This document shows, in pieces, positions 7,970 through 33,115 of a DNA stretch of 64,000 nucleotides. The position numbers and the translations under genes are program-made. The notes below the pieces were generated by a model. The model did not search any database and had not been told where the DNA came from. It was given only the letters and a program-made list of their open reading frames with translations. How positions within the stretch are numbered: the first letter of the stretch is position 1; every line of letters starts with the position of its first letter. Location: NCBI GenBank assembly GCA_964017185.1, contig OZ024871.1, positions 62,299,226 through 62,363,225 on the forward strand, given 5' to 3'. The stretch is from Rugalucina vietnamica. Taxonomy: Eukaryota > Mollusca > Bivalvia > Lucinida > Lucinidae.

Positions 7970-10900
7970 TGACAGCCCCTGATTTGTGTGTTACTAGTGC
8001 TGTCTCAAGCTCATTGTCCTACCCTAGTTCTATTGACAGCCCCTGTCTTGTGTGTGACTAGTGCTGTCGCCAGCTCAGTGACCTACCCTGATTCTATTGA
8101 CAGCCCCTGTCTTGTGTGTGACTAGTGCTGTCGCCAGCTCAGTGACCTACCCTGATTCTATTGACAGCCCCAGACTTGACTGTGACTAGTCCTGCCACCA
8201 GCTCAGTGACCTACCCTGATTCTATTGACAACCCCAGACTTGTCTGTGACTAGTCCTGCCGCCAGCTCAGTGACCTACCCTGATTCTATTGACAGGCCCA
8301 GACTTGTCTGTGACTAGTCCTGCCACCAGCTCAGTGACCTACCCTGATTCTATTGACAGCCCCAGACTTGTCTGTGACTAGTCCTGCCACCAGCTCAGTG
8401 ACCTACCCTGATTCTATTGACAGCCCCAGACTTGACTGTGACTAGTCCTGCCACCAGCTCAGTGACCTACCCTGATTCTATTGACAGCCCCAGACTTGTC
8501 TGTGACTAGTGCTGTCACCAGCTCAGTGACCTACCCTGATTCTATTGACAACCCCAGACTTGTCTGTGACTAGTGCTGCCACCAGCTCAGTGACCTACCC
8601 TGATTCTATTGACAGCCCCAGACTTGTCTGTGACTAGTGCTGCCGCCAGCTCAGTGACCTACCCTGATTCTATTGACAGCCACTGACTTGTCTGTGACTA
8701 GTCCTGCCACCAGCTCAGTGACCTACCCTGATTCTATTGACAGCCCCAGACTTGTCTGTGACTAGTGCTGTCGCCAGCTCAGTGACCTACCCTGATTCTA
8801 CTGACAGCCCCAGACTTGTCTGTGACTAGTGCTGTCCCAGCTCAGTGACCTACCCTGATTCTATTGACAGCCCCAGACTTGTCTGTGACTAGTGCTGTCG
8901 CCAGCTCAGTGACCTACCCTGATTCTATTGACAGCCCCAGACTTGACTGTGACTAGTCCTGCCACCAGCTCAGTGACCTACCCTGATTCTATTGACAGCC
9001 ACTGACTTGTCTGTGACTAGTGCTGCCGCCAGCTCAGTGACCTACCCTGATTCTATTGACAGCCCCAGACTTGTCTGTGACTAGTGCTGTCGCCAGCTCA
9101 GTGACCTACCCTGATTCTATTGACAGCCCCAGACTTGACTGTGACTAGTCCTGCCACCAGCTCAGTGACCTACCCTGATTCTATTGACAGCCACTGACTT
9201 GTCTGTGACTAGTGCTGCCGCCAGCTCAGTGACCTACCCTGATTCTATTGACAGCCCCAGACTTGTCTGTGACTAGTCCTGCCACCAGCTCAGTGACCTA
9301 CCCTGATTCTATTGACAGCCCCTGACTTGTCTGTGACTAGTGCTGTCTCCAGCTCAGTGACCTACCCTGATTCTATTGACAGCCACTGACTTGTCTGTGA
9401 CTAGTCCTGCCACCAGCTCAGTGACCTACCCTGATTCTATTGACAGCCCCAGACTTGTCTGTGACTAGTCCTGCCACCAGCTCAGTGACCTACCCTGATT
9501 CTATTGACAGCCCCTGACTTGTCTGTGACTAGTCCTGCCACCAGCTCAGTGACCTACCCTGATTCTATTGACAGCCCCAGACTTGTCTGTGACTAGTCCT
9601 GCCACCAGCTCAGTGACCTACCCTGATTCTATTGACAGCCCCAGACTTGTCTGTGACTAGTGCTGCCGCCAGCTCAGTGACCTACCCTGATTCTATTGAC
9701 AGCCCCTGACTTGTCTGTGACTAGTGCTGCCGCCAGCTCAGTGACCTACCCTGATTCTATTGACAACCACTGACTTGTCTGTGACTAGTCCTGCCACCAG
9801 CTCAGTGACCTACCCTGATTCTATTGACAGCCCCAGACTTGTCTGTGACTAGTGCTGCCACCAGCTCAGTGACCTACCCTGATTCTATTGACAGCCACTG
9901 ACTTGTCTGTGACTAGTCCTGCCACCAGCTCAGTGACCTACCCTGATTCTATTGACAACCCCAGACTTGTCTGTGACTAGTGCTGCCGCCAGCTCAGTGA
10001 CCTACCCTGATTCTATTGACAGCCCCAGACTTGTCTGTGACTAGTCCTGCCACCAGCTCAGTGACCTACCCTGATTCTATTGACAGCCACTGACTTGTCT
10101 GTGACTAGTCCTGCCACCAGCTCAGTGACCTACCCTGATTCTATTGACAGCCACTGACTTGTCTGTGACTAGTCCTGCCACCAGCTCAGTGACCTACCCT
10201 GATTCTATTGACAGCCCCAGACTTGTCTGTGACTAGTGCTGTCGCCAGCTCAGTGACCTACCCTGATTCTATTGACAGCCCCAGACTTGACTGTGACTAG
10301 TCCTGCCACCAGCTCAGTGACCTACCCTGATTCTATTGACAGCCCCAGACTTGTCTGTGACTAGTGCTGCCGCCAGCTCAGTGACCTACCCTGATTCTAT
10401 TGACAGCCCCAGACTTGTCTGTGACTAGTCCTGCCACCAGCTCAGTGACCTACCCTGATTCTATTGACAGCCCCAGACTTGTCTGTGACTAGTGCTGCCG
10501 CCAGCTCAGTGACCTACCCTGATTCTATTGACAGCCCCAGACTTGTCTGTGACTAGTGCTGTCGCCATCTCAGTGACCTACCCTGATTCTATTGACAGCC
10601 CCAGACTTGACTGTGACTAGTCCTGCCACCAGCTCAGTGACCTACCCTGATTCTATTGACAGCCACTGACTTGTCTGTGACTAGTGCTGTCGCCAGCTCA
10701 CTGACCTACCCTGATTCTATTGACAGCCACTGACTTGTCTGTGACTAGTGCTGTCGCCAGCTCACTGACCTACCCTGATTCTATTGACAGCCACTGACTT
10801 GTCTGTGACTAGTGCTGTCCCAGCTCAGTGACCTACCCTGATTCTATTGACAGCCCCTGACTTGTCTGTGACTAGTGCTGCCGCCAGCTCAGTGACCTAC

Positions 10901-13900
10901 CCTGATTCTATTGACAGCCCCAGACTTGTCTGTGACTAGTGCTGCCGCCAGCTCACTGACCTACCCTGATTCTATTGACAGCCCCTGACTTGTCTGTGAC
11001 TAGTCCTGCCGCCAGCTCAGTGACCTACCCTGATTCTATTGACAGCCCCAGACTTGTCTGTGACTAGTGCTGTCGCCAGCTCAGTGACCTACCCTGATTC
11101 TATTGACAGCCCCAGACTTGTCTGTGACTAGTGCTGCCGCCAGCTCACTGACCTACCCTGATTCTATTGACAGCCCCTGTCTTGTGTGTGACTAGTGCTG
11201 TCACCAGCTCAGTGACCTACCCTGATTCTATTGACAGCCACTGACTTGTCTGTGACTAGTGCTGTCCCAGCTCAGTGACCTACCCTGATTCTATTGACAG
11301 CCACTGACTTGTCTGTGACTAGTGCAGCCACCAGCTCAGTGACCTACCCTGATTCTATTGACAGCCACTGACTTGTCTGTGACTAGTGCTGCCACCAGCT
11401 CAGTGACCTACCCTGATTCTATTGACAGCCACTGACTTGTCTGTGACTAGTGCTGTCCCAGCTCAGTGACCTACCCTGATTCTATTGACAGCCCCAGACT
11501 TGTCTGTGACTAGTCCTGCCACCAGCTCAGTGACCTACCCTGATTCTATTGACAGCCCCAGACTTGTCTGTGACTAGTGCTGTCCCAGCTCAGTGACCTA
11601 CCCTGATTCTATTGACAGCCACTGACTTGTCTGTGACTAGTGCTGCCACCAGCTCAGTGACCTACCCTGATTCTATTGACAGCCACTGACTTGTCTGTGA
11701 CTAGTGCTGTCGCCAGCTCACTGACCTACCCTGATTCTATTGACAACCCCAGACTTGTCTGTGACTAGTGCTGCCGCCAGCTCAGTGACCTACCCTGATT
11801 CTATTGACAGCCCCTGACTTGTCTGTGACTAGTGCTGTCCCAGCTCAGTGACCTACCCTGATTCTATTGACAGCCCCAGACTTGTCTGTGACTAGTGCTG
11901 TCCCAGCTCAGTGACCTACCCTGATTCTATTGACAGCCACTGACTTGTCTGTGACTAGTGCTGCCGCCAGCTCACTGACCTACCCTGATTCTATTGACAG
12001 CCCCTGTCTTGTGTGTGACTAGTGCTGTCGCCAGCTCAGTGACCTACCCTGATTCTATTGACAGCCCCTGACTTGTCTGTGACTAGTGCTGTCTCCAGCT
12101 CAGTGACCTACCCTGATTCTATTGACAGCCCCAGACTTGTCTGTGACTAGTGCTGTCCCAGCTCAGTGACCTACCCTGATTCTATTGACAGCCACTGACT
12201 TGTCTGTGACTAGTGCTGTCTCAAGCTCAGTGACCTACCCTGATTCTATTGACAGCCCCAGACTTGTCTGTGACTAGTGCTGTCGCCAGCTCAGTGACCT
12301 ACCCTGATTCTATTGACAGGCCCAGACTTGTCTGTGACTAGTGCTGCCGCCAGCTCAGTGACCTACCCTGATTCTATTGACAGCCCCAGACTTGTCTGTG
12401 ACTAGTCCTGCCGCCAGCTCACTGACCTACCCTGATTCTATTGACAGCCCCAGACTTGACTGTGACTAGTCCTGCCACCAGCTCAGTGACCTACCCTGAT
12501 TCTATTGACAGCCCCAGACTTGTCTGTGACTAGTCCTGCCACCAGCTCAGTGACCTACCCTGATTCTATTGACAGGCACTGACTTGTCTGTGACTAGTCC
12601 TGCCACCAGCTCAGTGACCTACCCTGATTCTATTGACAGCCCCAGACTTGACTGTGACTAGTGCTGCCACCAGCTCAGTGACCTACCCTGATTCTATTGA
12701 CAGCCCCTGACTTGTCTGTGACTAGTGCTGTCGCCAGCTCAGTGACCTACCCTGATTCTATTGACAGGCACTGACTTGTCTGTGACTAGTCCTGCCACCA
12801 GCTCAGTGACCTACCCTGATTCTATTGACAGCCCCAGACTTGACTGTGACTAGTCCTGCCACCAGCTCAGTGACCTACCCTGATTCTATTGACAGCCCCT
12901 GACTTGTCTGTGACTAGTGCTGTCGCCAGCTCAGTGACCTACCCTGATTCTATTGACAGCCCCAGACTTGTCTGTGACTAGTCCTGCCACCAGCTCACTG
13001 ACCTACCCTGATTCTATTGACAGCCCCAGACTTGTCTGTGACTAGTGCTGCCACCAGCTCAGTGACCTACCCTGATTCTATTGACAGCCCCAGACTTGTC
13101 TGTGACTAGTCCTGCCACCAGCTCAGTGACCTACCCTGATTCTATTGACAGCCCCTGACTTGTCTGTGACTAGTCCTGCCACCAGCTCAGTGACCTACCC
13201 TGATTCTATTGACAGCCCCTGACTTGTCTGTGACTAGTCCTGCCACCAGCTCAGTGACCTACCCTGATTCTATTGACAGCCCCTGACTTGTCTGTGACTA
13301 GTGCTGTCTCCAGCTCAGTGACCTACCCTGATTCTATTGACAGCCACTGACTTGTCTGTGACTAGTGCTGTCTCCAGCTCAGTGACCTACCCTGATTCTA
13401 TTGACAGCCCCTGACTTGTCTGTGACTAGTGCTGTCCCAGCTCAGTGACCTACCCTGATTCTATTGACAGCCCCAGACTTGTCTGTGACTAGTGCTGTCT
13501 CCAGCTCAGTGACCTACCCTGATTCTATTGACAGCCACTGACTTGTCTGTGACTAGTGCTGTCTCCAGCTCAGTGACCTACCCTGATTCTATTGACAGCC
13601 CCTGACTTGTCTGTGACTAGTGCTGTCCCAGCTCAGTGACCTACCCTGATTCTATTGACAGCCCCTGACTTGTCTGTGACTAGTGCTGTCTCCAGCTCAG
13701 TGACCTACCCTGATTCTATTGACAGCCCCTGACTTGTCTGTGACTAGTGCTGTCCCAGCTCAGTGACCTACCCTGATTCTATTGACAGCCACTGACTTGT
13801 CTGTGACTAGTGCTGCCGCCAGCTCAGTGACCTACCCTGATTCTATTGACAGCCCCTGACTTGTCTGTGACTAGTCCTGCCACCAGCTCAGTGACCTACC

Positions 13901-16900
13901 CTGATTCTATTGACAGCCCCTGTCTTGTGTGTGACTAGTGCTGTCGCCAGCTCAGTGACCTACCCTGATTCTATTGACAGCCCCAGACTTGTCTGTGACT
14001 AGTGCTGTCCCAGCTCAGTGACCTACCCTGATTCTATTGACAGCCACTGACTTGTCTGTGACTAGTGCTGCCGCCAGCTCAGTGACCTACCCTGATTCTA
14101 TTGACAGCCCCAGACTTGTCTGTGACTAGTCCTGCCACCAGCTCAGTGACCTACCCTGATTCTATTGACAGCCCCAGACTTGTCTGTGACTAGTCCTGTC
14201 ACCAGCTCACTGACCTACCCTGATTCTATTGACAGCCCCAGACTTGTCTGTGACTAGTGCTGTCCCAGCTCAGTGACCTACCCTGATTCTATTGACAGCC
14301 CCTGTCTTGTCTGTGACTAGTGCTGTCCCAGCTCAGTGACCTACCCTGATTCTATTGACAGCCCCAGACTTGTCTGTGACTAGTGCTGTCCCAGCTCAGT
14401 GACCTACCCTGATTCTATTGACAGCCCCAGACTTGACTGTGACTAGTCCTGTCCCAGCTCACTGACCTACCCTGATTCTATTGACAGCCACTGACTTGTG
14501 ACTGTCTGTGACTAGTCCTGCCACCAGCTCAGTGACCTACCCTGATTCTATTGACAGCCCCAGACTTGTCTGTGACTAGTCCTGCCACCAGCTCAGTGAC
14601 CTACCCTGATTCTATTGACAGCCCCAGACTTGACTGTGACTAGTCCTGTCCCAGCTCACTGACCTACCCTGATTCTATTGACAGCCCCAGACTTGTCTGT
14701 GACTAGTGCTGCCGCCAGCTCAGTGACCTACCCTGATTCTATTGACAGCCCCTGTCTTGTGTGTGACTAGTGCTGTCGCCAGCTCAGTGACCTACCCTGA
14801 TTCTATTGACAGCCCCTGACTTGTCTGTGACTAGTCCTGCCACCAGCTCAGTGACCTACCCTGATTCTATTGACAGCCCCTGTCTTGTGTGTGACTAGTG
14901 CTGTCGCCAGCTCAGTGACCTACCCTGATTCTATTGACAGCCCCTGACTTGTCTGTGACTAGTCCTGCCACCAGCTCAGTGACCTACCCTGATTCTATTG
15001 ACAGCCCCAGACTTGACTGTGACTAGTGCTGCCGCCAGCTCAGTGACCTACCCTGATTCTATTGACAGCCCCAGACTTGACTGTGACTAGTCCTGCCACC
15101 AGCTCAGTGACCTACCCTGATTCTATTGACAGCCCCAGACTTGTCTGTGACTAGTGCTGTCTCCAGCTCAGTGACCTACCCTGATTCTATTGACAGCCCC
15201 TGACTTGTCTGTGACTAGTGCTGCCGCCAGCTCACTGACCTACCCTGATTCTATTGACAGCCCCAGACTTGTCTGTGACTAGTGCTGCCGCCAGCTCACT
15301 GACCTACCCTGATTCTATTGACAGCCCCAGACTTGTCTGTGACTAGTGCTGCCGCCAGCTCAGTGACCTACCCTGATTCTATTGACAGCCCCTGACTTGT
15401 CTGTGACTAGTGCTGCCGCCATCTCAGTGACCTACCCTGATTCTATTGACAGCCCCAGACTTGTCTGTGACTAGTGCTGCCGCCAGCTCACTGACCTACC
15501 CTGATTCTATTGACAGCCCCAGACTTGTCTGTGACTAGTGCTGCCGCCAGCTCACTGACCTACCCTGATTCTATTGACAGCCCCAGACTTGTCTGTGACT
15601 AGTGCTGCCGCCAGCTCAGTGACCTACCCTGATTCTATTGACAGCCCCAGACTTGTCTGTGACTAGTGCTGTCCCAGCTCAGTGACCTACCCTGATTCTA
15701 TTGACAGCCCCAGACTTGTCTGTGACTAGTCCTGCCACCAGCTCAGTGACCTACCCTGATTCTATTGACAGCCCCAGACTTGACTGTGACTAGTCCTGCC
15801 ACCAGCTCAGTGACCTACCCTGATTCTATTGACAACCCCAGACTTGTCTGTGACTAGTGCTGTCGCCAGCTCAGTGACCTACCCTGATTCTATTGACAGC
15901 CCCTGACTTGTCTGTGACTAGTGCTGTCCCAGCTCAGTGACCTACCCTGATTCTATTGACAGCCCCAGACTTGTCTGTGACTAGTGCTGTCGCCAGCTCA
16001 GTGACCTACCCTGATTCTATTGACAGCCCCTGTCTTGTGTGTGACTAGTGCTGTCGCCAGCTCAGTGACCTACCCTGATTCTATTGACAGCCCCTGACTT
16101 GTCTGTGACTAGTGCTGTCGCCAGCTCAGTGACCTACCCTGATTCTACTGACAGCCCCAGACTTGACTGTGACTAGTCCTGCCACCAGCTCAGTGACCTA
16201 CCCTGATTCTATTGACAGCCCCAGACTTGTCTGTGACTAGTCCTGCCACCAGCTCAGTGACCTACCCTGATTCTATTGACAGGCCCTGACTTGTCTGTGA
16301 CTAGTCCTGCCACCAGCTCAGTGACCTACCCTGATTCTATTGACAGCCCCAGACTTGTCTGTGACTAGTGCTGTCCCAGCTCAGTGACCTACCCTGATTC
16401 TATTGACAGCCCCAGACTTGTCTGTGACTAGTGCTGTCCCAGCTCAGTGACCTACCCTGATTCTATTGACAACCCCAGACTTGACTGTGACTAGTGCTGC
16501 CACCAGCTCAGTGACCTACCCTGATTCTATTGACAGCCCCAGACTTGTCTGTGACTAGTCCTGCCACCAGCTCAGTGACCTACCCTGATTCTATTGACAG
16601 CCCCAGACTTGTCTGTGACTAGTCCTGTCACCAGCTCAGTGACCTACCCTGATTCTATTGACAGCCCCAGACTTGTCTGTGACTAGTGCTGTCTCCAGCT
16701 CAGTGACCTACCCTGATTCTATTGACAGGCCCAGATGATGGCCCCGACTTGTGTGTGACATGTGCTGTCTCCAACTCACTGACCTACCCTGATTCTATTG
16801 ACAGCCACTGACTTGTGACTGTGTGTGACTAGTGCTGCGGCCAGCTCAGTGACCTACCCTGATTCTATTGACAGCCTCTGACTTGTGTAAGACAAGTGCA

Positions 16901-16945
16901 GTCTCCAGCTCAATGACATACCCTGACTCTATTGATGGCCCCTGC
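7970..16945 (-). repeat. 64-bp minisatellite derived from the GRWD1 acidic-exon end and splice donor (~140 copies)
   Basis: The 64-bp unit (62-bp variants lack two bases near GTCCCAGCT) is repeated across ~9 kb. On the minus strand each unit reads CTGAGCTGGCGACAGC, CTAGTCAC, AAGTC..GGGGCTGTCAA, TAGAATCAGG then GTAGGTCA. That is the last ~55 nt of the GRWD1 exon at 31973 plus its donor. Edge copies near 8000-8110 and several inside keep exon-like bases such as CACACACAAGACAGGGG. The donor hexamer GTAGGT is retained in nearly all units. Because 64 is not a multiple of three, the array has no long open frame. Confidence 0.92.
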
Positions 16946-17084
16946 AGGGTTGCCACTCATTTTCCATTTCAAAATTCCTTTCATTTTTCCATAACTTTTC
17001 CCTGACTTTTCACAGTTTTCTAGATATTTCTGACTGCATTTGGACTCCCATTTCAGCTCTTCAAAGCCACCCAATCTTCCATAA
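16946..17084. other. Short unique spacer between the 64-bp array and element D
   Basis: T-rich sequence with repeated CATTTTCC / TTTTCCC blocks. No gene is seen. The last array bases before it (GATTCTATTG giving way to GACTCTATTGATGGCCCCTG) match the 29-bp array at 30.4 kb rather than the 64-bp array. Confidence 0.4.
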
Positions 17085-18567
17085 CCTGAGGACCAACTGT
17101 CCTGTAAACGCTCACCTGAGATCTGTTGTACAGTCCCAGTAAAAAATCAACAACATATTCCTCTTTTCTCGGAGGACCCTAAGCTATTTTTCTCGGAGAA
17201 AGAACGCTAAATTTCTCTTTTCATTAAGATATTTCACGTTTCGTTCAGTTCGATTTCTCAGAGAAACACCGAGAAATTTCACCGCGACCGCAGGTATTAA
17301 CCGGTGAAAACAGGTGAGTCCAGATTTACCTGTTCGCGGTGTTTCTCGGAGAAATATTGTGCACGATTGTGAAAATCGATTTTACCATATTTTTAATAAT
17401 TAAAGTAGTTTTAGACCTTTAACTGATCAGTATTTATAAGTGTTTTTGTATATGGCACCTCTAACAGATTGACACGTTTTAATAAGGCACATTAATTACT
17501 GAGCAAACATTCCACAATCTTCTTCACTGGTTTCCGTTACGGTTGGTCAGGCATGATTCGACTCGCATTTGACATACAAATTAAGAAGTACTTTGTTTCA
17601 TCTCAATTATGTCTTTATCCAAGTAGTTTCATTTGTTTGAGCTATGAAACATAAAAGCAATAGGCCATAAACATGTACGAGTATAATAGGTAACCATTTT
17701 GCACATTCTTGAATTCATATTGTAATGAAATAAATGTTGTCTGGTTCTTGTTGTATGTCAAGCTATGGAAACGTGCATGTAGAATGAAATGGCATAATTT
17801 CATCACATTGTCAGCTTATGGAGCAAGCTATTTTTGTAAAATTTTATTGACCCGATTACCCTGCATGAATATGCATTACAACATTCTCGATGATAAGGAT
17901 ACACAGTATTTAACTAGCACAAAGTTTTGTCAATACCTCTAAATCACTCATTTATCAGGGGCACTGTTCGCATAAACACTTTTTTTATACCAAATTTATG
18001 ACCAAATCTTCACATAAGGATAAGGTGGATAACGAGAAAACAATTTATACACTTTTCTTTTTTTAAGAATCTGTTTTTCTTGCTAGCTGCATAAACGCAA
18101 AACCTATTGCCATGCATAACGACAACTCCACAATGAACATTTTGTGTTGGCGGCATGTTGTTTTTACAAGGTGCGGTCCGAAATGTCAAGTGCATAGAGA
18201 AGTGCATGATACATGGTGAAAAATGACAAGTACATGTAAAGACAATTTATCAATTACTGATAATTGATAAATTAATTGATAATTAATCGAGTAAATTAAC
18301 AAACGCATTTACATGTTCATGTGCTTTAAACCCATATACATTGTATGAGGTATTAACTCAACATATTTACACACATCATGATAACATGTCCATGTAATGT
18401 ATACCCCACTTTTATATGAGCCCCGTCATGAGAACGCTGGACTTATACTCATGCGATAATAAAGTCGCAGATCAACTGTGCAGTATCTGCACAGCTGATC
18501 AGCGCCTTTGTTTTCACTACTCGGCTAGTACAATCCCCCTACTTCTTTAATCTGATATTTCTGTACG

Positions 18568-18644
18568 CTGTGGCTTGGCTCAGATGTATGTTACATGTAA
18601 CGTGGCTGTACGTTACATGTAACGCACAGCCGAGCCAAGCCACA
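18568..18644. repeat. Imperfect palindrome beside the TRIM-like element
   Basis: GCTGTGGCTTGGCTC (18568-18582) is the exact reverse complement of GAGCCAAGCCACAGC (18630-18644). Two copies of GTTACATGTAAC, itself palindromic, lie in the loop. The right arm lies inside the left LTR of the adjacent element, so the left arm looks like an inverted fragment of that LTR. Confidence 0.6.
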
Positions 18645-19033: not shown

Positions 19034-21535
19034 TGATCAAGATGTATAGATATGAATTTTTCACCGTATTCGATCTAATAAGTGCACTTGTTCCAAAAAT
19101 CGCACATCCTGATCGTTTCCGAAAAACATGTGCAGCTCGACTAGCACACAGCTCAACTGGCGTATGGATATCTTACATCCAATCTACACGTTAAATCGCA
19201 TTAAAACTTAACCTTTATTAATGTATCCATAGAAGGCAGGAACGGATACACTCATTTTACACGAAAACAAATACATGACCTTATATTTTGGTGTCAGTTT
19301 TAAAAATTACCGGGACCGTCTAAGTATACAAACTTTAATATGCATGTGCATGAATAGAAAAATCACTGCGCAATATTGCTGTTACTAACGTCCTTGTCCT
19401 CAGCCACGGTTATGTCGGTACGTTTTCGTCGCTTTATGGTACTGTACAAGTTTGGGATGTCCTGCATTCGAAATGGGCTACACAACATTCGTATTTGTAA
19501 ACCCTTCACTTACAAAAACTACCGAAACAGCATCCGACACGCTATGAACTGCAGATACTTGAGTATGTATGTTTTGTATGTTTGATGCATCCACATTTAT
19601 ATCTCGATGTCGTAACACAAATGACGACAAAATAATGGTGCATACGTAAAGGAAAAATAAAAGAAAAATACTATCATAACCGACATTGTCCCAAATATAT
19701 GTACATGTAAAGAAAAGTTTGTATATTTCAGCCACTTACTTTGATGCACTGTGTGACATATCCTATACAAAAGTATTTGTTGCACATAATGCATTTTTCA
19801 TCTAATAATATCAATCAGATTTAAAGAGGGAGCGAAATAAAAATTTAAGACCATTAAAATTTCTCGACTGTATATACATGTACATTTACAATGTTCCATA
19901 CAAACCCCAATTCTGCACAAGGTATAACAAACATGTAAATGTATTTATGAGGTTTTCCGATCTCTCCTTCCGAAAGCGTTGCTGCCTTTTGTGTCGATGA
20001 TGTTTTAAAGAAATAATTTCATATACCGTAACTTTAAAATTACGAAAACATGCCCATGCAATATACAGAGATGTTTAAAGAGGAAAAAAAATGAAAATTT
20101 TCAGTAGAAAATGTTTGCTTTTTCTTATTCATGCTCAAAACATAGATTGTGGGTACACGTTATAACCACCTCTATAACCGCCTCACCGAGGCGGTTCAAA
20201 CTAGTACCCACAATCTTATGTTTTGGAGCAAAAGATAAAAAATAAAGATATACCCCTGCATACCCCAGTTTTGCTTTTGATGGGATACACATTTTCCATG
20301 AAATGTTTTCCTGATGTAAAATGTTTGAACAAGAATGATTTTAATGATGCAAATGCATGTGCATGAATAGCAATGTATGGACATGTACATTCATATCTAC
20401 GTGATGTATTTAGCCGTCAATTGGGAGTAAGTCATATGACAGTGTTGGCTGCACGGTCGGCATTTTTATTTGCTTGACTTTTTATTTCACTTTACGGCAG
20501 ACAGCTTCCTTATCGTGTGAAGGAGCAGTGTCAGCTTCGTGTTCATTAGAGAATGTGACACAAGAACATGACTGTGTATGCCGAAACACACTTCCTGGTA
20601 ATGCTGCAAATTCTACCACTTGGCCAAATCAGTCTAAAATGATTTCTGTAAATTTTGTTGACCATTTATGTATGTTAATATACCATGCAATATTACGGGT
20701 GAAAGGGCATCAATTTAGGCGATCCCATAAGTTCATGATTTAAACGGCTTTGTGGTTGTTCATGGAGAATAACTTTTGATGCAAATTCTTTCCTACTACA
20801 TGTAGTCTCGATCTAAAACATACGAATATATATACATGTTCATGTACATGTACAAATGCTCAAATTATTTGCGATTTATATGGAACCATAATCTGAATAT
20901 TTGATAACGGTTACGTTAACAGCTTACCAAGAAATGCTGGCGGACAAGTAAGGTCCGAACATGTAATAAGAAGACAGGCCGCGATGGTTTTACATGTATA
21001 GATAGTGCGTTCGCTTCGAAAAAAAAAAGTTGCGATTTTGATCTCCGGCCGGTATATTCATGTTATTTTGATGACTTGTGTTTATCCTGACATAATTAAA
21101 GTAAACCGCCTGTTAAATCATTGCTATTGTACATAATTCAATACATTTGATCAAATGTCATTAAACTTATTTATTCATTCAATGAAAATGATTCTGATTA
21201 TCCACATAGTCACTAGAAGTGTGGTAATTTTATTCTTTGTCGGAAAGGACAATGCTCAAGGCGCGAATTTTTAATGACGCCCTTGATTTTTAAATGATTT
21301 TTTCGCTTCCATTCTTCTGTTCAAAGATCGAATAATCAAGGATGATGTGAAGAGCAACACAAGTGACAAAGGTCATCATAAATTTTAATGTAATCAAGAA
21401 TATATTTATGTGGATTATAAGCCATCTTAACAAATACGTAACATCTGCAAGTTTCATACTTGCAAATACTTATTATTTTTTTAATTTATTGTTTTATATT
21501 TGTTCAAAAATTATAAACATGCATTTGTCTTTTAA
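19034..21535. other. Interior of the 4.6-kb TIR element, no gene recognised
   Basis: The region is AT-rich with many ACATGTACATGTA-type motifs. One plus-strand frame (20474-20743) encodes a Cys-containing stretch with CVCRNTLPGN, but no splice sites or family could be assigned. Other short frames look random. Confidence 0.4.
20121..20240. repeat. Palindromic repeat, second copy of the 55.2-kb hairpin
   Basis: Arms CATAGATTGTGGGTAC and GTACCCACAATCTTATG enclose a GCCTCACCGAGGC centre. Flanks with TATACCCCTGCATACCCCAG also occur near 55.1 kb. This copy is more diverged than the 55153-55255 palindrome. Confidence 0.6.
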
Positions 21536-22348
21536 ATTCCTCCGAGAAACTCCAAGAAAAAGAGTTTTATCGATAAATCCAGGTAATTACCTTTCTCGGA
21601 GAAACACCGAGAAATTTCACCGAGAAACACCGCGAAATTTCACGAAGACGATTTCGTCTACCTGGCTTATTTCGCGGTGTTTCTCCGAGAAATAAAAATT
21701 TCGCATTGGCCATGGTTGCTGAGAAACGCGGAATATGTTGTTATTTTTTTACCGGGAGTGTATATACCAATAAACATGTTTGAATATTATGGAAAATAGT
21801 CCAAGTAAAGGAGCAGATAAAGCCCTGGGGCCATTTTCTTTTCATAATAATTAATATCCTGTCCATTTGCCAATTTCCTGCATGTCTTTTCCTTCAACTG
21901 ACATTTTAACAGTTTTACCCATTCAAAGGCATAGGCGACCTATGTTGACCTTGTCATAAAATAGGCCAAGGTCACCACAGGGTCATGATTTGTAGTACTT
22001 TGTAGCACATTGTAGTACTTTAGTCATCGATGCTTCATGCCAAGTTTCTTTGAAATAGGTCCACCGGTTCCAGAGAAGATTTTTGAAGTTTTTTTTTTAC
22101 CATATATGGGCATGGCGGCCATCTTGGTCATGTGACCTGGATTATTTATATAGAATAGAATAGAATAGAATAGAATACTTTTATTTCAACCAATCAAGGG
22201 TCATTTCTGACATATAAAATAGTGAAACTAACAAACATATCAAAATACATTGTGAATAACGACAAATTATTCTGAACAAAAGAATGAAAGAGAAACAATA
22301 TAAATAATGCGGAAACCTTTGGCGATATTGATATATATTCGACAATAC

Positions 22349-22669
22349 CTAATGTTTACTAATACTTCTGAGGGAAAAACAATCATAGATATACCTAGAG
22401 AACAGAAAGATTATTTCATCACATTCATTTGTCATCAACCAAATGAGCCGAGCCTCCTGAGATAGGTTTGAAAAGTGTTTACATAATTTTTTAATCTCTG
22501 TGAAGAAGTTTTGGCGAAGGGAATCGTACAAACTGCATTCAAAGATAAAATGTTTTTCGTCCTCAACAGTATTCGAACTGCAATAAATACATACTCTTTT
22601 TTCTACTGAATGTCTTTTATGCCTACCTCTTTCAATTTCTAGTTTATGAGAACTGATTCTAAAAGACAT
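22349..22669 (-). pseudogene. LINE reverse-transcriptase ORF, C-terminal fragment
   Basis: The frame encodes 107 residues including a zinc-binding-like RVCIYCSSNTVEDEKHFIFE segment ending in ECSLY. This CxxC...H...C arrangement is typical of the region C-terminal to the polymerase domain in CR1/L2/jockey-type LINEs. It ends at a normal stop, followed by ~175 bp of 3' UTR and the AGAAT-repeat tail. The upstream part of the ORF is missing because the sequence flips orientation at ~22670. CR1-like assignment rests partly on the ATTCT-repeat tail and is tentative. Confidence 0.75.
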
Positions 22670-22673
22670 TTTA

Positions 22674-23125
22674 TCGTCTGGTTCTTATCCATCAAACTGG
22701 AAAACTGGTTATATTAAACCACTATATAAAGGAGAGGATCCCAACTTACCTTCCAATTATAGAGGAATTACTGTAATGCCATGCTTGGCAAAACTGTTTA
22801 ATAGCATTTTAAACAATAGACTCCAAAAATACTTAGATGAATATAAATTGATAAATCCCTGTCAAATTGGCTTTCAGCCAAAATCTAGAACCGTTGATCA
22901 TATGTTTATTCTAAGAACTTTAATTGAAAAATATACAAACAGCAAATCAAAACTATATGTTTGTTTTGTAGATTTTCAAAAGGCTTTTGACTCAGTTATG
23001 CATTCAGCCTTATTTTCAAAACTAGCAAAACTTGACATTAAAGGACCATTTTATAATATTCTTAAACATATGTATTTAAATAACACACTACAAGTGCGTA
23101 TAAAAGATAAAATGACATCCACGTA
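22674..23125 (+). pseudogene. LINE reverse-transcriptase palm-domain fragment (inverted part)
   Basis: An open frame, without a start codon at the junction, includes SNWKTGYIKPLYKGED, NYRGITVMPCLAKLF and YVCFVDFQKAFDSV. The last is motif A of the polymerase, with the catalytic Asp in FVDF. The frame stops at 23124 before the YADD-type motif C, so it cannot be active. It is in opposite orientation to the C-terminal fragment at 22349-22669, as twin priming produces, with the intervening ORF segment deleted at the junction. It probably belongs to the same LINE copy. Confidence 0.85.
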
Positions 23126-25879
23126 AAAGATAAAATGACATCCACGTTTGGACTTCCGGTGACGTCACATATACGTTGGTTACCCCATCCTATAGATGCT
23201 TCACATAAAATTTGGCTTTGATCAGAAGAGAAGATGTTTGAATATTATGGATATACATGTATACTGCCCCGGGGTGGGGACATATGAGCTCCTGGGGACC
23301 ATTTTTTTCAGAATCATTAATATTCAGTCCTACTTCGCATTTCCTGCAAGACATTCACTTTAAATGACATTTTAAAAGTTTTCCCCATTCAAATGCATTG
23401 GCGACCTATGTTGACCTTGCCATAAAATAGGTCAAGGTCATTGCAGGGTCATGATTTATGTATACATTGTAGTACTTGAGCCAGCAATACTTCATGCCAA
23501 GTTTCGTTGAAATCAGTCCACCGGTTCCAGAGGAGAAGATTTTTGAAGGGTTTTCACCATATATGGGCATGGTGGCCATCTTGGTCATGTGACCTGAATT
23601 ATTTATATATGCATTGATTCCCCCTTCCTATAGATGCTTCATATAAAATTTGGATCTGATTGGCCATGCAGTTTCAGAGAAGAAAGAAGAAGATTTTTGA
23701 ATATTATGGTAATATACATGTATATTGCCCCGGGGTAGGGGCATATGAGCCCCTGGGGTCATTTTTTTTTCAGAGTCATTAATATTCAGTCCTGTATACT
23801 GCGCATTTCCTGCAAGTTTTTCCCTTTAAATGACATTTTAACAGTTTTCCCCCATACAAATGTGTAGGCGACCTATGCTGACCTTGCCGTAAAATAGGTC
23901 AAGGTCATCACAGGGTCATGATCTATATATACATTGTAGTACTTGAGTCATTAATGATTCATGCCAAGTTTCGTTGAAATCGGCCCACCAGTTCAGGAGA
24001 AGAAGATTTTTGAAGGGTTTTTATCATGTATGGGTGTTCATGTGACCTGGATTATTTATATACACATTGGTTATACTTGGATTTTTTTCAATGTGCAGGG
24101 CAGGGTTTAGCTAAGCCCAGCCTTGGGTGATTTCATTGTTGAGATAGGGTCCCTGAGCTGACAATGTATAATTGAGGTAAAGATGACTATGCTTGTTGTC
24201 TTTGTGCTATACCTGTGTTTCACCTGAATGATTTCAAAATATGTGAAGTGTATGGTAGACACACAAAAACATAAACATTTTGTTTTCTATAATCCGCGCA
24301 CTGTTGATTGTCATGTCAATAGGTCACACATTTCATTAACAGCGTCGAAATAGGTAAACATGTTATAAATAGCAATCCGGAAAGTGTACGCCTTTTCCGG
24401 AGAATCAAGAGTTTTCCCTTTTATGCTAAATACATTTAAGACACCATTATAAGTTAACACTTCAGTCATAGTCGTGATAGTACGACCGTGGATCAATATT
24501 AAAGTGTTATTGGTTATATTTTGGTAGGCGTTCGAATCCCATTTTTGACTTTTTTTTTTTTTTTTTTTAGATTTTTTCCCTCTTATTAGTACACTATTGC
24601 CTGTATTTATTTTATAATATTTTATGTCCCGCAAAACTCTCCAGATTCTACGCCTATTGACCCCTGTCATGAGCTGTGTCCCCACTCAGTCTTCAAGGAT
24701 ATGGACATGCCGCTTTTTCTCTCTTCTTTCCTACAAGACTCGTATATATTCTTTGCTGGTATGTTTAAATGTTCTTTCGCCCTGTGTTCCACTTCGCAGA
24801 ATGATGTGAATAACATTGGATACTGGATAGGCCGATTTGGAAAGCAAAATGAGTGTTTTACTAAAATAAATTACACATGTAAAACGTACATGTACATGTA
24901 ATGCACCAGTCATATATATCCACGGCCCCTAAAGGACCGGGTTAACTTTTCAATTTTAAAACCCCGCTAAAAGCCCGGCATTGCGGGGTCATATTTGTAA
25001 TCATGAAGTCCATGCTAATAGCCACGGGCCCCTTAGGCTGACAATACTACGGCAAATCTCCGGTACTGCCGGGACTCGTCCAATGTTTAATTCCGGCACT
25101 TCAGTCCCACTTTGTCCCCGCTATACCGGGGATGCGAATGACTGGTCCATAATACAAGTGCCACGTACATATATATGCACACATCCTTGTTAATACAGAA
25201 ACTGAATAACTATTTTAATTAACTACATGTATAATTGCTTAAACTACTTATGTATAAATTATATATTAAAATCGAAGTTATACTTTTGTGAGAGAATACA
25301 AATAAAATTCAGAAGATAAAAAATAAATAAATGGTTTCGAACCTCAGCCCCCATCCTCATACCTGTACAATATGTTGTAATGCACGACGGACTCGTAACC
25401 ACACGGCTTTAGTGTTTAACTGGGAATCAATGTAGAAAACGCACATGATTTAATACGTATGTTTACCTCACGAGGGCCTCATGGAAGATTAGCTATTGCA
25501 CATGCTCTCATTTATATATGTACATGGATATATGCTAAATGTAGAAACCCTCTTTAAATAAAGTCTTTACTTACTTATAACGGACTTCCCGAAAATCTCT
25601 GGTACTACGCGTCTAATTTCGTCAGCTCACCTGCACGCCCGTTTTCGAGGATTAGTTGATATTTAAAAGTACAAAAACATGACATGTTTACAAAATTGGA
25701 TTATAAAATATAACCATACTGCTTCACTCAAATATTTCTATCAAGTTAGCCAATGCCTCTATTTTTGTAAACAACTCTTTGCTTTACTGATGGTACATGA
25801 CCGCAGTAGAAGGTCAATAAAGTACCATTCGAAAAAATAAAGCCATTCGGAGAACCAGCAGATTTGACTTATTTTTCCT

Positions 25880-26175
25880 ACAAGGTCAGCTCAGTCAAAT
25901 TAGCAGCAAATTTGCTGCATCAAAAACGGTCAAGTTTGCAGCAAGTTTACTGCAGCAAAATCGGTCATGTTACATGTAGCAGCAATTTTGCTACAGCAAA
26001 AGCAGTCAAGTTAACGGCAATTTTGCTTGCAGCGTTAGAATTAAATTTGCAGCAGCAAAATACAGTCAAGTTAGCGGAAATTTTGCTGCAGCGAAATTGA
26101 TCAAGTAAGCAGGTATTTTGCTACAGCGAAAAACAGTCAAGTAAGCAGCAATTTCGCTTGCAGCGAACATTTTTG
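25880..26175 (+). repeat. Degenerate GCAGCAA/TTGCTGC minisatellite
   Basis: About seven irregular ~45-bp units contain GCAGCAA, TTTGCTGCAGCAAAA and GTCAAGTTAGC-like blocks. The open frame at 25864-26100 is only the translated repeat. An inverted fragment occurs at 26780-26880. Confidence 0.65.
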
Positions 26176-26779
26176 TCGCAGAATGTTTTGGCTTTAATCT
26201 AGGTGATAACGCATAAGAAAATGATGATTTTTGCCACAATCACATCTTTTCGACGTCACCTACGAAAAAAGTTCGATGTAAGTGGAAATGTTTATCACCA
26301 TTTTTTTATTATTTTAGTCTTCTTAAAAATTTTTCTTTTTCGTCTGGCTGTGGTCGCTATGTAGAAAACGATGATGAATGCTGCAACATAACTTTTCTAG
26401 ACCTTATATTACCAACTTTATGGAAAATGTTGCTGATTTTTTACATTTTCATCTGGCTGTGAGTGCTATAGGAAACGAATACTTATGCTGCAAACAAGAC
26501 TTTTCTACCCCACCCATAACATAGCTTAAGGACAAAAGTTCCCTGCCAACAGTAAAAGTGTCCATAGACTGGGTAATAGGTGGGATAAAAACACGTCTGT
26601 TTGTGATGACATTCATCATCTTATACATGTAGCGCTCATAGACAGACTTAAACGAAAACGAGAGACCGAATTGTGCCGTAGCTCACCTTAGTGATTTGCT
26701 GATCAGAGTAAGCTTCAAGATAGACGATGATACTCTGGAGCCTTGTCTGTATGAACAATAGACAATTTGTGGCAAAAAG

Positions 26780-26802
26780 TTTCGCTGCAGCTAACTTGAC
26801 CG

Positions 26803-26834
<32 letters not shown>

Positions 26835-26880
26835 CTGCTGCTGCTGCTGCAACAGATTCGCTGCTAACTTTACTGAACTG
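26780..26880 (-). repeat. Inverted fragment of the GCAGCAA minisatellite, T28 and (GCT)n
   Basis: TTCGCTGCAGCTAACTTGAC is followed by 28 T (26803-26830), (GCT)6-7 (26831-26850) and TTCGCTGCTAACTTTACTG. This is the reverse complement of the 25.9-kb unit interrupted by two simple repeats. Confidence 0.65.
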
Positions 26881-27649
26881 TCAGTAGCACTTTACAGATC
26901 CGTACTGTAGTTATTGCACTTTTTCTGCCGCCTTCATTAGTAAATTAGTAATTTAAAGTAAGTTTAATTGTATCAGAATTAAAGTTTTAAACTTGAAACG
27001 AAAAACAGAGAGTCATACAACAAGAATGTTTACCAGGCATTTACTGAGGGAATTTTCAATATGGTCATACATAAATACAGTCATGTAGTACAGAATATTT
27101 TTTCTATGACAGTATGTGTTTATCCATCATTTTAGTGCATGAGGTTTAGTTTTGACACTGATTGGTTCAACAATAACAAGTGGATCAAAGTAACAGTCCA
27201 AGTGAGAACTACCTATTTTTATATGTAATGGTCAACTTTGTCATTGTCAATCAAAAATTGACAGGCTCCGCCCTGCACATTGAAAAAAGTCAGACTATAC
27301 CCTTTCCTATAGATGCTTCATATAAAATTTGGCTTTGATTGGCCAAGCGGTTTCAGAGGAGAAGATCTCTTTGAAATTGTGGACGGACGCCCGACGGACG
27401 CCGGGGCATGGCCATCCTATAAGCTCACCTTGTAAAAGGTGAGCTAAAAAAAGCACCTTTAGGTAAGTTTTCAAAGGAATAATTGTGTCTTTTTGCATCC
27501 TTCTGTTATTCTCACTGTTACTTAAGGAGAAAAATAAGGCTTTTACATAGCGACAGTTCCATCTCCCTATACAGCACTATCTGTAGGGATCAGGCAAAAA
27601 AAAACAACACCTACCCCATGTGATCAAGAGTGTAAATAAAACAAGTAGC

Positions 27650-30117
27650 CCAGGGGCAACGATCGCTCACCTGAGAGCCAACAAGTACAGTCACTGGACA
27701 AAGTAGTTGGCATTTTTAACATATATGGGTATGATGGCCATCTTGGTCATGTGACCTTGAAACCCTACTTACATCAGCAGATGAGCTCTTGTCTGGATTG
27801 TGTATCCTCTTTTCTGCCATTTTGGTTCACTTGAAAAAATCATCTAACAAGGTCAGGGTCCTATAATGACCCCCGGGGTTGGGCCATATTTGACTCCAGG
27901 GGCAAGATTGGCAGGATTTATGTAGAGCTCCACATGACAATGTTGTATATCAAATATACAAGCTTTGTGTCATGCTGTTGCAGAGAAGATTTTTTCACAT
28001 ATTTCCCTTATAAGTCTATGGTAGATGATAACATGCCTGGGGCATGGCCTGTATGGACCCCAGGGGCACCGTAGGCAGGATTTATAAAGAGGAACACTAT
28101 ACATTGCTACAAATAAAATATGAAAGCTCTGGGCCTTGTGGTTTCGGAGAAGAAGATTTTTTTTATGCTTTTCCCATGACGCCCCCGGGGCGGGGCCCGT
28201 GTGGACCACAGGGGCACGGTTGGCAGGATGTATAAAGAGGATCACTATATATTGCTACAAACAAAATGTGAAATCTCTGGGCCTTGTGGTTTCGGAGAAG
28301 AATTTTTTTTATGTTTTACCCATGACCCCCCCGGGGCGGGGCCCGTATGGACCCCAGGGGCACGGTTGGCAGGATTTATAAAGATGACCACTATACATTG
28401 CTACTGACAAAATATGAAAGCTCTGGGCCTTGTGGTTTTGGAGAAGAAGATTTTTTTATGTTTTTCCCATGACACCCCTGGGGCGGGGCCTGTATGGACC
28501 CCAGGGGCACGGTAGGCAGGATTTATAAAGAGGACCATTATACCTTGCTACACAAAAAATATGAAAGCCTTGTGGTTTTGGAGAAGAAGATTTTTTATGT
28601 TTTTCCCATTGTAAGTCTATGGGAGCTAATGACCCCCGGGCGGGGCCATTTTTGACCCCAGGGGCATGATTGGCAGGATTTATATAGAGGACCACTAAAC
28701 ATTGCTACATACAAAATATGAAAGCTTTGGGCCTTGTGGTTTTGGAGAAGAAGATTTTTTTATGTTTTTCCCATGACACCCCTGGGGCGGGGCCTGTATG
28801 GACCCCAGGGGCACGGTAGGCAGGATTTATAAAGAGGACCATTATACCTTGCTACACACAAAATATAAAAGCTCTGGGCCTTGTGGTTTCGGAGAAGAAG
28901 ATTTTTTATGCTTTCCCCATTGTAAGTCTTTAGGAGCTAATGACCCCCGGGGCAGGGCCATTTTTGACCCCAAGGGCATGATTGGCAGAATTTATATAGA
29001 GGACCACTAAACATTGCTACATACAAAATATGAAAGCTTTGGGCCTTGTGGTTTTGGAGAAGAAGATTTTTTTTGTTTTTCCCATGACACCCCCGGGACG
29101 GGGCCCGTATGGACCCCAGGGGCACGGTAGGCAGTATTTATAAAGAGGACCATTATACATTGCTACACACAAAATATGAAAGCTCTGGGCCTTGTGGTTT
29201 CGGAGAAGAAGATTTTTTTATGTTTTTCCCATTGTAAGTCTATGGGAGCTAATGACCCCCGGGGAAGGGCCATTTTTGACCCCAGGGGTATGATTGGCAG
29301 AATTTATATAGAGGACCACTAAACATTGCTACACACAAAATATGAAAGCTCTGGGCCTTGTGGTTTCAGAGAAAAAGATTTTTTTTATATTTTCATCATG
29401 ACGTCCCCGGGGCGGGGCCGTGTGGACCACAGGGGCACGGTTGGCAGGATTTAAAAAGAGGAACACTATATATTGCTACAAACAAAATATGAAAGCTCTG
29501 CCAGCTGCTCTGGGCCTTGTGGTTTCGGAGAAGAAGATTTTTTTATGTTTTTCCCATTGTAAGTCTATGGGAGCTAATGACCCCCGGGGCAGGGCCGTTT
29601 TTGACCCCAGGGGCATGATTGGCAGGATTTATATAGAGGACCACTAAACATTGCTACACACAAAATATGAAAGCTCTGGGCCTTGTGGTTTCAGAGAAGA
29701 AGATTTTTTTTATATTTTCATCATGACGCCCCCGGGGCGGGGCCCGTATGGACCCCAGGGGCACGTATGGCAGGATTTATGAAGAGGACCACTAGACATT
29801 GCTACACACAAAATATGAAAGCTCTTGGCCTTGTGGTTTCAGAGAAGAAGATTTTTAAATGTTTTTCCCATTGTAAGTCTATGGGAGCTATCTGTTGCCA
29901 TGGAAACCAGAGTTCTGATCCGACCTGGCCCAAAACCTAATACAACCTTTCCCCTTCCTCAATGATGCTTTAGATAAAATTTGGTCACGATTGGCCTTGT
30001 TGTCTTAGAGATATTGAAGTTTGAAAATGTGGACGGACGCACAGACGGACGGACGGACGCCGGCTCGACTACTATACTATAAGCTCACCTCGTGAGCCTT
30101 CGGCTCAGGTGAGCTAA
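27650..30117 (+). mobile_element. HINE-like element E (2.5 kb, alternating ~150/165-bp monomers)
   Basis: The 5' end is a variant, GGGGCAACGATCGCTCACCT followed by GAG. About 13 monomers alternate between a GCCCGTATGGACCCCAGG type and a GGGCCATTTTTGACCCCAGG type. The tail is (ACGG)n (about 30030-30060) and the hairpin is GAGCCTTCGGCTC. The core is related to that of element C, including the TCTGTTGCCATGGAAACC block near the 3' end (29891-29908). The many overlapping frames are translated monomers. Confidence 0.75.
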
Positions 30118-30286
30118 ATATGTGACATTATGTAGGCATGGGCTTGGGGGCCGCGTAGGCCCCCAGAAGCTCTTGAGTAATTGATGTTATCACCTGTGAT
30201 CTTGGCTTTTCCTGAGGTCACTTACCAATTTTTTTTATCATACAACAAGGTGAAAATAAAAAGTCAATACTGCAGAAAAAAAAAAA

Positions 30287-31972
30287 GTGTGTGACTTTTG
30301 TTGTCGCCAGCTCAGTGACATTGATACTATTGACGGCTCCTGACCTACCCTGACACTATTGACAGCCCCTGACCTACCCTGACACTATTGACAGCCCCAG
30401 ATCTACCCTGACACTATTGATGGCCCCTGACCTACCCTGACTCTATTGACAGCCCCTGATCTACCCTGACACTATTGATGGCCCCTGACCTACCCTGACT
30501 CTATTGACAGCCCCTGATCTACCCTGACACTATTGATGGCCCCTGACCTACCCTGACTCTATTGACAGCCCCTGATCTACCCTGACTCTATTGACAGCCC
30601 CTGATCTACCCTGACACTATTGACAGCCCCTGATCTACCCTGACACTATTGACAGCCCCTGATCTACCCTGACACTATTGACAGCCCCTGATCTACCCTG
30701 ACACTATTGACAGCTCCTGATCTACCCTGACACTATTGACAGCCCCTGATCTACCCTGACACTATTGACAGCCCCTGATCTACCCTGACACTATTGACAG
30801 CCCCTGATCTACCCTGACTCTATTGACAGCTCCTGATCTACCCTGACTCTATTGACAGCCCCTGATCTACCCTGACACTATTGACAGCCCCTGATCTACC
30901 CTGACTCTATTGACAGCCCCTGATCTACCCTGACACTATTGACAGCCCCTGATCTACCCTGACTCTATTGACAGCCCCTGATCTACCCTGACACTATTGA
31001 CAGCCCCTGATCTACCCTGACTCTATTGACAGCCCCTGACCTACCCTGACACTATTGACAGCTCCTGATCTACCCTGACTCTATTGACAGCCCCTGATCT
31101 ACCCTGACACTATTGACAGCCCCTGATCTACCCTGACACTATTGACAGCCCCTGATCTACCCTGACACTATTGACAGCCCCTGACCTACCCTGACACTAT
31201 TGACAGCTCCTGATCTACCCTGACACTATTGACAGCCCCTGACCTACCCTGACACTATTGACAGCTCCTGATCTACCCTGACACTATTGACAGCCCCTGA
31301 TCTACCCTGACTCTATTGACAGCCCCTGATCTACCCTGACACTATTGACAGCCCCTGATCTACCCTGACACTATTGACAGCCCCTGACCTACCCTGACAC
31401 TATTGACAGCTCCTGATCTACCCTGACTCTATTGACAGCCCCTGATCTACCCTGACTCTATTGACAGCCCCTGATCTACCCTGACACTATTGACAGCCCC
31501 TGATCTACCCTGACACTATTGACAGCTCCTGATCTACCCTGACTCTATTGACAGCCCCTGATCTACCCTGACACTATTGACAGCCCCTGACCTACCCTGA
31601 CACTATTGATGGCCCCTGACCTACCCTGACTCTATTGACAGCCCCTGATCTACCCTGACTCTATTGACAGCCCCTGACCTACCCTGACTCTATTGACAGC
31701 CCCTGATCTACCCTGACTCTATTGACAGCCCCTGATCTACCCTGACTCTATTGACAGCCCCTGATCTACCCTGACACTATTGACAGCTCCTGATCTACCC
31801 TGACACTATTGATGGCCCCTGACCTACCCTGACTCTATTGACAGCCCCTAATCTACCCCGACACTATTGACAGCCCCTGACCTACCCTGACTCTATTGAC
31901 AGCCCCTGATCTACCCCGACACTATTGACAGCCCCTGACCTACCCTGACACTATTGACAGCCCCTGACCTAC
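30287..31972 (-). repeat. 29-bp minisatellite of the GRWD1 splice donor (~57 copies)
   Basis: The minus-strand unit is GGGGCTGTCAATAGTGTCAG then GGTAGATCA, that is the last 21 exon bases plus the first 8 intron bases of the adjacent GRWD1 exon. The array begins directly at the real donor (31972). By hand count roughly 15 of ~57 copies keep GTAGGT; most have GTAGAT, an A at donor position +5. The far end (30287-30330) keeps a 64-bp-type unit (GTGTGTGACTTTTG, GTCGCCAGCTCAGTGACA), linking it to the 7.9-16.9-kb array. Confidence 0.92.
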
Positions 31973-32116
31973 CCTGACTCTATTGACAGCCCCTGACTTG
32001 TGCGTGACTAGTGCTGTCTCCAACTCAGGTTTTTCATCTTCGTCTTCACTTTCACTGCTGCTCTCATCTTCTTCATCCTCTTCTTCATCTTCTTCATTCT
32101 TCTCCTCCTTTTTTGC
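31973..32116 (-). CDS. GRWD1: GRWD1 internal exon: acidic Glu/Asp tract
   Basis: This 144-bp exon (48 codons, phase 0 at both ends) lies between an ATTAAAG acceptor (AG at 32118-32117) and an AGG|GTAGGT donor (GT at 31972-31971). It encodes about 28 residues dominated by Glu, Asp and Ser, then KPELETALVTHKSGAVNRVR. In the GRWD1 family the acidic region is followed by a KPQLELAMVPHYGGINRVR-like stretch, so both composition and order match. Acidic tracts of this kind bind histones and basic ribosomal proteins in the family. A CTAAT branch-point-like sequence lies upstream of the acceptor. The last ~21 nt of the exon plus the first 8 intron bases form the unit of the adjoining 29-bp minisatellite. 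The last ~55 nt plus ~9 intron bases form the unit of the distant 64-bp minisatellite. Reading through the donor meets a TAG after ten codons. Confidence 0.9.
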
Positions 32117-32948: not shown

Positions 32949-33115
32949 CTTTGGTTTTGTAGTTCTGTGAAGGTTGGCCATTTTCATTACAATGACATGG
33001 TTAGTTTTGCCCCTCTCAGCTTGTGTGCCAGCAACTATGTAGCATGTGAGTGGAAACTGCTCCCTGTTGGGTCCAAGGTTGTCTGGTAGAACATCAAAAC
33101 TCAGACAAGGAGCAC
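32949..33115 (-). CDS. GRWD1: GRWD1 internal exon: GAPCLSFD / histone-binding N-terminal region
   Basis: This 167-bp exon follows a TTTGTCAG acceptor (AG at 33117-33116) and ends at CCAAAG before donor GTTAAT (GT at 32948-32947). It enters in phase 1 and leaves in phase 0, fitting the acidic exon next in line. The peptide contains GAPCLSFDVLPDNLGPNREQ, CYIVAGTQAERGKTNHVIVM and KMANLHRTTKPK. These align without gaps to the N-terminal region of GRWD1 (CAF1C/RbAp histone-H4-binding type, ending near the LSFD and AGTQA motifs). A 110-residue open frame covers 32841-33173 here, but its ends are intron sequence on both sides. The preceding exon, expected to end in a YHxAQTG-like motif, was not found in the window. 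Confidence 0.9.

Follow-up and report, generated by a model that had tools for sequence, protein, structure and literature searches.

A 5' splice site of GRWD1 amplified about 200-fold with its exon end inside its own intron in a lucinid bivalve: a large, recurring case of a seldom described kind of repeat

Minisatellite-like tandem duplications that span exon-intron boundaries, with AG/GT in many of their copies, have been described in amphioxus as "mirages" (PMC3087553). So far as the available parts of these accounts go, the genes concerned are Adh3 and the globins BflGb6 and BflGb9 (PMC3087553), to which TnC and PGBD5 were added (PMC3902484); units measure 10-72 bp in Adh3 and 150-160 bp in the globins, BflGb6 haplotypes carry 6 and 3 units, edge copies lie outside homogenisation (PMC3087553), and splicing is reported as undisturbed or accurate (PMC3087553, PMC3902484). 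For the minisatellite of human 6-16/IFI6 (Turri et al. 1995), use of two downstream units as donors is described, with three mRNA species as the outcome (PMC4526556). In human segmental duplications, internal tandem repeats include minisatellites, some at exon-intron boundaries, and the variable ones are said to average four 30-bp units over all locations together (PMC2812944). In abalone, the 27-bp minisatellite in intron 3 of a TSSK1-like gene is not said, in the available text, to include a splice site (PMC6905558); the corresponding text on Conus gene structure deals with microsatellites and reports no boundary-derived units (PMC3862624), and neither do the available parts of papers on intronic minisatellites of C. 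elegans and earthworm. The open-access literature searched, as far as its text was available, yielded no report of a boundary-derived minisatellite in a mollusc, and the available part of PMC8724738 held nothing useful on the choice among many donors.

An array of this kind lies in GRWD1 of the bivalve Rugalucina vietnamica. The first-pass annotation knew of no described case, a claim that does not hold, given that the amphioxus mirages (PMC3087553, PMC3902484) and the human donor minisatellite, as far as their accounts were available, precede it. As in the mirages, the GRWD1 units span the exon-intron boundary (56 + 8 nt and 21 + 8 nt), 196 copies keep GT, and edge copies escape homogenisation, as a tendency and not in every edge unit. 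The mirages are known from cephalochordates and from donor and acceptor boundaries, whereas the present case comes from another animal, is so far confined to the donor side and, set against the available accounts, has about 200 units, two nested unit lengths and several genes. The GRWD1 minisatellite resembles that of IFI6, as described in the available text, in carrying donors beside an exon; unlike the productive IFI6 donors, all 196 GRWD1 decoys are predicted to lead to a premature stop, so productive use is unlikely. Human boundary repeats have been read, in the text available, as making new introns (PMC2812944), whereas the GRWD1 array sits in an intron between conserved exons. Likewise, splice signals are copied both here and in intron gain by AGGT tandem duplication, but in the available account of the latter the product is a new intron (PMC4974935) and here it appears to be decoys within one. 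As far as the open-access literature was searched, what is new is the size of the array, its combination of two nested unit lengths and a later insertion, its occurrence in a different animal and the recurrence in unrelated genes of one genome.

The window, i.e. the whole stretch of 64,000 nucleotides that was analysed (C3:62299226-62363225), belongs to a genome of 1.09 Gb and carries GRWD1 on its minus strand (Table 1). With human GRWD1 as query, six exon matches were obtained on the minus strand of one contig, running in order from C3:62380148 to 62290163, while three other matches were short WD-repeat hits on different contigs; this order supports the first-pass interpretation of the locus. 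The acidic exon that gave the repeat is not among the six and was placed by its frame, its phase and its position between two well-matched exons. It matches the human protein weakly (12 of 20 residues, E 0.14), finds nothing significant in Pfam, translates as AKKEEK...PELETALVTHKSGAVNRVR (an acidic tract followed by PELETALVTHKSGAVNRVR) and ends in phase 0 at AGG|GTAGGT. The intron that follows is 31,120 nt long (31972-853), parts two GRWD1 exons at a phase-0 junction, and is closed by an exon that by itself has no Pfam match. Its donor is not unusual in strength, since the three other GRWD1 donors that were located form U1 duplexes of -11.3, -8.4 and -4.1 kcal/mol as compared with -9.7 kcal/mol for the amplified one. 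Elsewhere in the window, a 26-bp minisatellite occupies an apparent upstream GRWD1 intron (39978-42684; 104 copies, 98% match) and a 151-bp tandem repeat of about 21 copies (91% match) lies at 43974-47124.

Table 1. Features of the GRWD1 locus (positions within the window)
Feature	Position	Strand	Evidence or content
Next GRWD1 exon (ATKVKEKMLAATWSD..., acceptor CTCTAG|GCC)	642..852	-	tblastn E 2e-11; borders from sequence
64-bp array, farther into intron	7970..16944	-	unit = last 56 exon nt + 8 intron nt; 140 GT-intact decoys
13.3-kb insertion inside one 64-bp unit	16945..30286		broken unit halves flank it; 146/312-bp repeats (TRF)
Stub of 64-bp unit, far end of 29-bp array	30287..30321	-	alignment to 64-bp unit, score 50
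29-bp array, adjoining exon	30322..31972	-	unit = last 21 exon nt + 8 intron nt; 56 GT-intact decoys
Genuine donor GTAGGT (intron bases 1-6)	31967..31972	-	phase-0 junction to exon 852-642 keeps GRWD1 frame
GRWD1 acidic exon, source of repeat units, ends ...AATAGAGTCAGG	31973..32116	-	frame, phase, position
GRWD1 upstream exon (CAF1C_H4-bd, GAPCLSFDVLPDNLG...)	32949..33115	-	tblastn, human GRWD1 query, 54% identity, E 6e-16; Pfam PF12265 E 6e-10; borders from sequence

Analysis of the intron by TRF gave 57.8 copies of the 29-bp unit (30322-31996, 93% match) and 140.2 copies of the 64-bp unit (7970-16942, 94% match). Both units had been described in the first-pass annotation as colinear copies of the exon end, and alignment bore this out: 49 of the last 56 exon nucleotides are identical in the 64-bp consensus with the intron bases excluded, and the local scores of the 64-bp and 29-bp units against the exon, 77 and 43, lie far above the maxima of 34 and 29 reached in 2,000 dinucleotide shuffles. 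Decoy donors were counted by searching the intron for the 13-mer TCAGGGTAGGTCA with up to 4 mismatches and keeping matches with GT in register inside either array. This left 196 GT-intact copies (56 + 140), all in sense orientation and with the genuine donor excluded, in agreement with the earlier estimate of about 200 decoys with authentic exon context in the transcribed orientation. Of the 358 intron matches the other 162 were set aside: 140 from the 64-bp region that lack GT in this register, 2 from the 29-bp region and 20 outside the arrays, 4 of which have GT; the antisense strand of the intron has 14 matches, none in either array. As donors the decoys fall short of that first description in one respect: GTAGGT, which equals the genuine donor in its U1 duplex (-9.7 kcal/mol), is found in 138 of the 140 donors of the 64-bp array (one GTATGT and one GTAGGA making up the rest) and in only 15 of the 56 exon-adjacent copies, the other 41 carrying the weaker GTAGAT (-7.3 kcal/mol). 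Among the matches listed in searches of the animal's own genome (100 and 75, both lower bounds), the array sequence occurs only at the GRWD1 locus.

The 139 full 64-bp units do not repeat a single sequence, many columns being variable; neighbouring units differ on average at 3.1 positions and units 40 apart at 3.6. The exon and the 64-bp consensus differ at 7 columns, at which the first three full units carry the exon state in 4, 1 and 4 cases and the last three in 3, 3 and 5 (of the 5 in the incomplete last unit, one falls in flanking sequence), compared with a mean of 0.97 in interior units. The edges of the array thus tend to be more exon-like than its interior, with the edge unit at 1 of 7 as an exception, which is the pattern expected if the exon was the source and the interior was homogenised. 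Given that the acidic exon also continues the GRWD1 reading frame, we conclude that it is the source of the units.

The two unit lengths reported at first stand, but they do not make two separate minisatellites. At its far end the 29-bp array passes into a 64-bp unit, of which the first part is present before a T-run, and the 64-bp array begins mid-unit at its near end; the two halves make up one unit minus about 4 nt. The 29-bp and 64-bp arrays are therefore one former array, and since the halves on both sides complete one 64-bp unit, the sequence at 16945-30286 was inserted later. Accordingly, the stretch 7970-31990 named in the first-pass annotation, which placed the amplification inside the exon's own intron, is not all array. 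No target-site duplication was seen by eye at the 13.3-kb insertion. Within the insertion, a reverse-transcriptase-like frame of a non-LTR element was noted by eye at 22650-23126 (plus strand). Similar tandem repeats (periods of 146-166 and 312-328 bp) that share motifs such as GACCCCAGGGGCA and GTGGTTTC lie on either side of the 64-bp array, at 5220-6866 and 28036-29890.

To judge the consequences for splicing, we computed the reading frame that results when the acidic exon is extended to each decoy. A premature stop followed in all 196 cases, in 195 of them inside the extension and for the first decoy alone in the frame-shifted next exon, indicating that a conserved GRWD1 must mostly use the first donor; from the sequence, only this donor would give a working protein. 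Strong acceptors are absent from the arrays: AGs with an upstream pyrimidine fraction of at least 0.76 number 0 of 252 in the 29-bp array and 0 of 1,196 in the 64-bp array, against 18 of 653 in the insertion and 8 of 329 in the rest of the intron. This absence is not absolute, since the two real acceptors have fractions of 0.71 and 0.76 and the best AG of the 64-bp array reaches 0.71. Given that the arrays offer donors and little that resembles an acceptor, the decoys would mainly compete with the genuine donor for the acidic exon. In exon definition the first donor wins, and we infer that this rule applies here.

A second giant case, in ACMSD, was found through a search for triples of AGGTRAGT. 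The exon, ...SIFVHPWDMEMGGRMSKYWLPWLV|G, matches PDB 4ign and others (E 1.6e-12), has no Pfam match by itself and ends at GTAG|GTGAGT (C1:57215710/57215711). The unit measures 41 bp, made of the last 21 exon nucleotides and 20 intron nucleotides, and TRF counts about 225 copies in the array at L056. Over L056 and L057 (C1:57215690-57225900) we found 212 units at up to 3 mismatches, the genuine boundary being the first and the last lying at 57225876; 205 of the 212 are GT-intact, 180 carry TAGGTGAGT, and none was found on the opposite strand. The next ACMSD exon, GMPAETATAICCMTMGG, begins near 57229476.

For the recurrence search, three donor words were sought at minisatellite-like spacing in the same genome, with each word written backwards as control. 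Triples of AGGTRAGT were found at 607 places (419 + 188; the first 100 of the 607 listed) against 223 for the control, triples of CAGGTRAGT at 85 places (24 + 61) in 12 clusters against 26 places, and triples of AAGGTRAGT at 133 places (133 + 0) against 26, with at least 8 clusters among the first 100 of the 133. Out of the 20 CAGGTRAGT and AAGGTRAGT clusters, the 5' side of 16 was fetched, two more were inspected, and two simple-repeat clusters were left out. In 13 of the 16 fetched clusters an open frame judged exon-like finishes at the first copy (L059-L061, L063-L067, L069-L072 and L074); no exon was seen at the other three (L062, L068, L073), and none was recognised at C1:29.340M (L028) or C1:26.187M (L054). 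Comparison of the first two copies in 12 of the 13 (not L064) revealed a copied exon stretch of 17-42 nt in 11, while at L060 nothing of the exon was copied beyond the donor itself. Six of the 13 exon-like frames have database support: APC1 (L060, E 1e-17), SLC6/SNF (L072, Pfam E 1e-15), MRP1/ABCC (L064, E 2e-8), ECM29 (L071, Pfam E 2e-7), a P-loop NTPase (L061, NPHP3_N at E 2e-5 among many P-loop families) and a PGAP1-like frame (L059, Pfam E 4e-5; its 23.8 bits narrowly miss the cut-off of 24.3). The remaining seven are supported by an open frame alone, the longest frames at L063, L065, L066, L067, L069, L070 and L074 being 178, 55, 73, 80, 22, 65 and 71 aa, respectively (the exon-like frame of L066 is the one of 62 aa). 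Given that chance frames have a median of 29 aa and a 90th percentile of 57 aa, L065 and L069 are especially weak candidates. None of these seven has a Pfam match up to E 0.1; in PDB, L066, L070 and L074 are unmatched and L069 reaches only E 0.21, and in NCBIfam, the one match of L063 (E 0.099) is meaningless, while L067 and L074 are unmatched. On the acceptor side, triples of TTTTACAG were found at 404 places (83 + 321) against 112 + 94 for the backwards control, with at least 16 clusters among the first 100 of the 404. One flank of each of 16 clusters showed no convincing exon start by eye, and Pfam matched 0 of 8 reading frames submitted. Since the last copy was a poor choice and TTTTACAG is not acceptor-specific, an asymmetry between donors and acceptors is not proven.

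The GRWD1 array belongs to a kind already known, the exon-intron-boundary minisatellite, and is a mirage of unusual size that is most likely neutral. Judged from its sequence, it is probably a donor-anchored minisatellite that is tolerated as the genuine donor comes first, splicing being presumed to proceed from there. For the order of events and the mutational mechanism we infer that a tandem duplication which took in the end of the exon and the 8 intron bases next to it gave rise to the 64-bp unit, and that 29 bp at the edge nearest the exon were duplicated later, probably between the GTCA tetramers that start at -25 and +5 of the donor, 29 nt apart. Both units may then have expanded through slippage or unequal exchange before the 13.3-kb insertion divided the array. 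The array has no evident function. It would persist since, past the acceptor of the exon, the original donor comes first and is still chosen by exon definition, while its copies lack a good acceptor and sit in an intron that gets removed. An artefact of assembly, or the joining of different loci, is extremely unlikely: long arrays do assemble with difficulty, but six GRWD1 exon matches are ordered on a single contig, the full 64-bp units are variable at many positions, and other loci show the same architecture. Very unlikely, too, is a functional decoy array that recruits U1 snRNP along the 31-kb intron and blocks premature polyadenylation or tunes GRWD1 via unproductive splicing. Such a role would account for the GTAGGT retained in nearly all donors of the 64-bp array and for the distribution of sense poly(A) signals, which number 11 AATAAA and 16 ATTAAA in the insertion, 2 and 5 in the remaining intron and zero in the arrays. 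However, recent homogenisation can explain the uniformity of the donors, most exon-adjacent decoys carry the weaker GTAGAT, and unrelated genes have similar arrays. The columns with common variants in the 64-bp unit (11 in number, none among the last 24) leave a gap of borderline significance (p 0.053), and constraint on the donor part is not claimed.

Whether donors in this lineage are more than tolerant sites bears on the recurrence. That 5' splice sites are a mutational hotspot, preferred as birthplaces of minisatellites beyond mere tolerance, appears unlikely to us. It is favoured by the similar abundance of single CAGGTRAGT words (17,034 against 16,789 for the backwards control), as compared with 12 against 5 clusters when tripled, and by the exon-like frames at the start of 13 of the 16 fetched clusters. 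The difference of 12 against 5 is weak and suggestive only, real donors being an unspecified share of the 17,034, and a donor-like ACAG|GTATAAAC also stands in one control cluster out of the 5 (C2:16.237M). Selection against arrays within exons or at acceptors predicts the same picture, and simple tolerance suffices, since the genuine donor stays in first place after a duplication of the donor-side boundary. We tentatively entertain, while leaning somewhat against it, the broader proposal that 5' splice sites of this genome keep giving rise to minisatellites, with many genes having their exon end and donor amplified, GRWD1 and ACMSD up to about 200 times, and decoys ignored via the first-donor rule. 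If this is true, pre-mRNAs of this animal would carry large natural arrays of decoy donors in authentic context, and the first-donor rule would be directly testable at these loci.

Together, the data indicate that the GRWD1 array is no one-off; it is a large member of a repeat type that has seldom been described and that recurs in this genome. Since arrays of this type occur in unrelated genes, boundary minisatellites appear not to be peculiar to lancelets, for which most descriptions were found; they may be a general route of intron growth, and exon-like copies inside introns can mislead gene prediction. Each array is in effect a natural experiment in 5' splice-site choice, with up to about 200 near-identical donors in the same exon context.

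Two further arrays were noted in the course of the recurrence search. At L054 (about 4263-6817; C1:26186260-26188820, minus strand) a polypyrimidine stretch with CAG|GTAAGT or similar recurs every 21-24 bp, so that the array resembles back-to-back acceptor and donor (recursive-splice-like) sites, and the other strand is partly an open repeat frame (ESHLPEDKYEIPESK). The cluster found with the backwards-control pattern at C2:16236868-16237506 (minus strand; G000) carries ATACAG|GTATAAAC in its 42-bp units and is a possible donor array.
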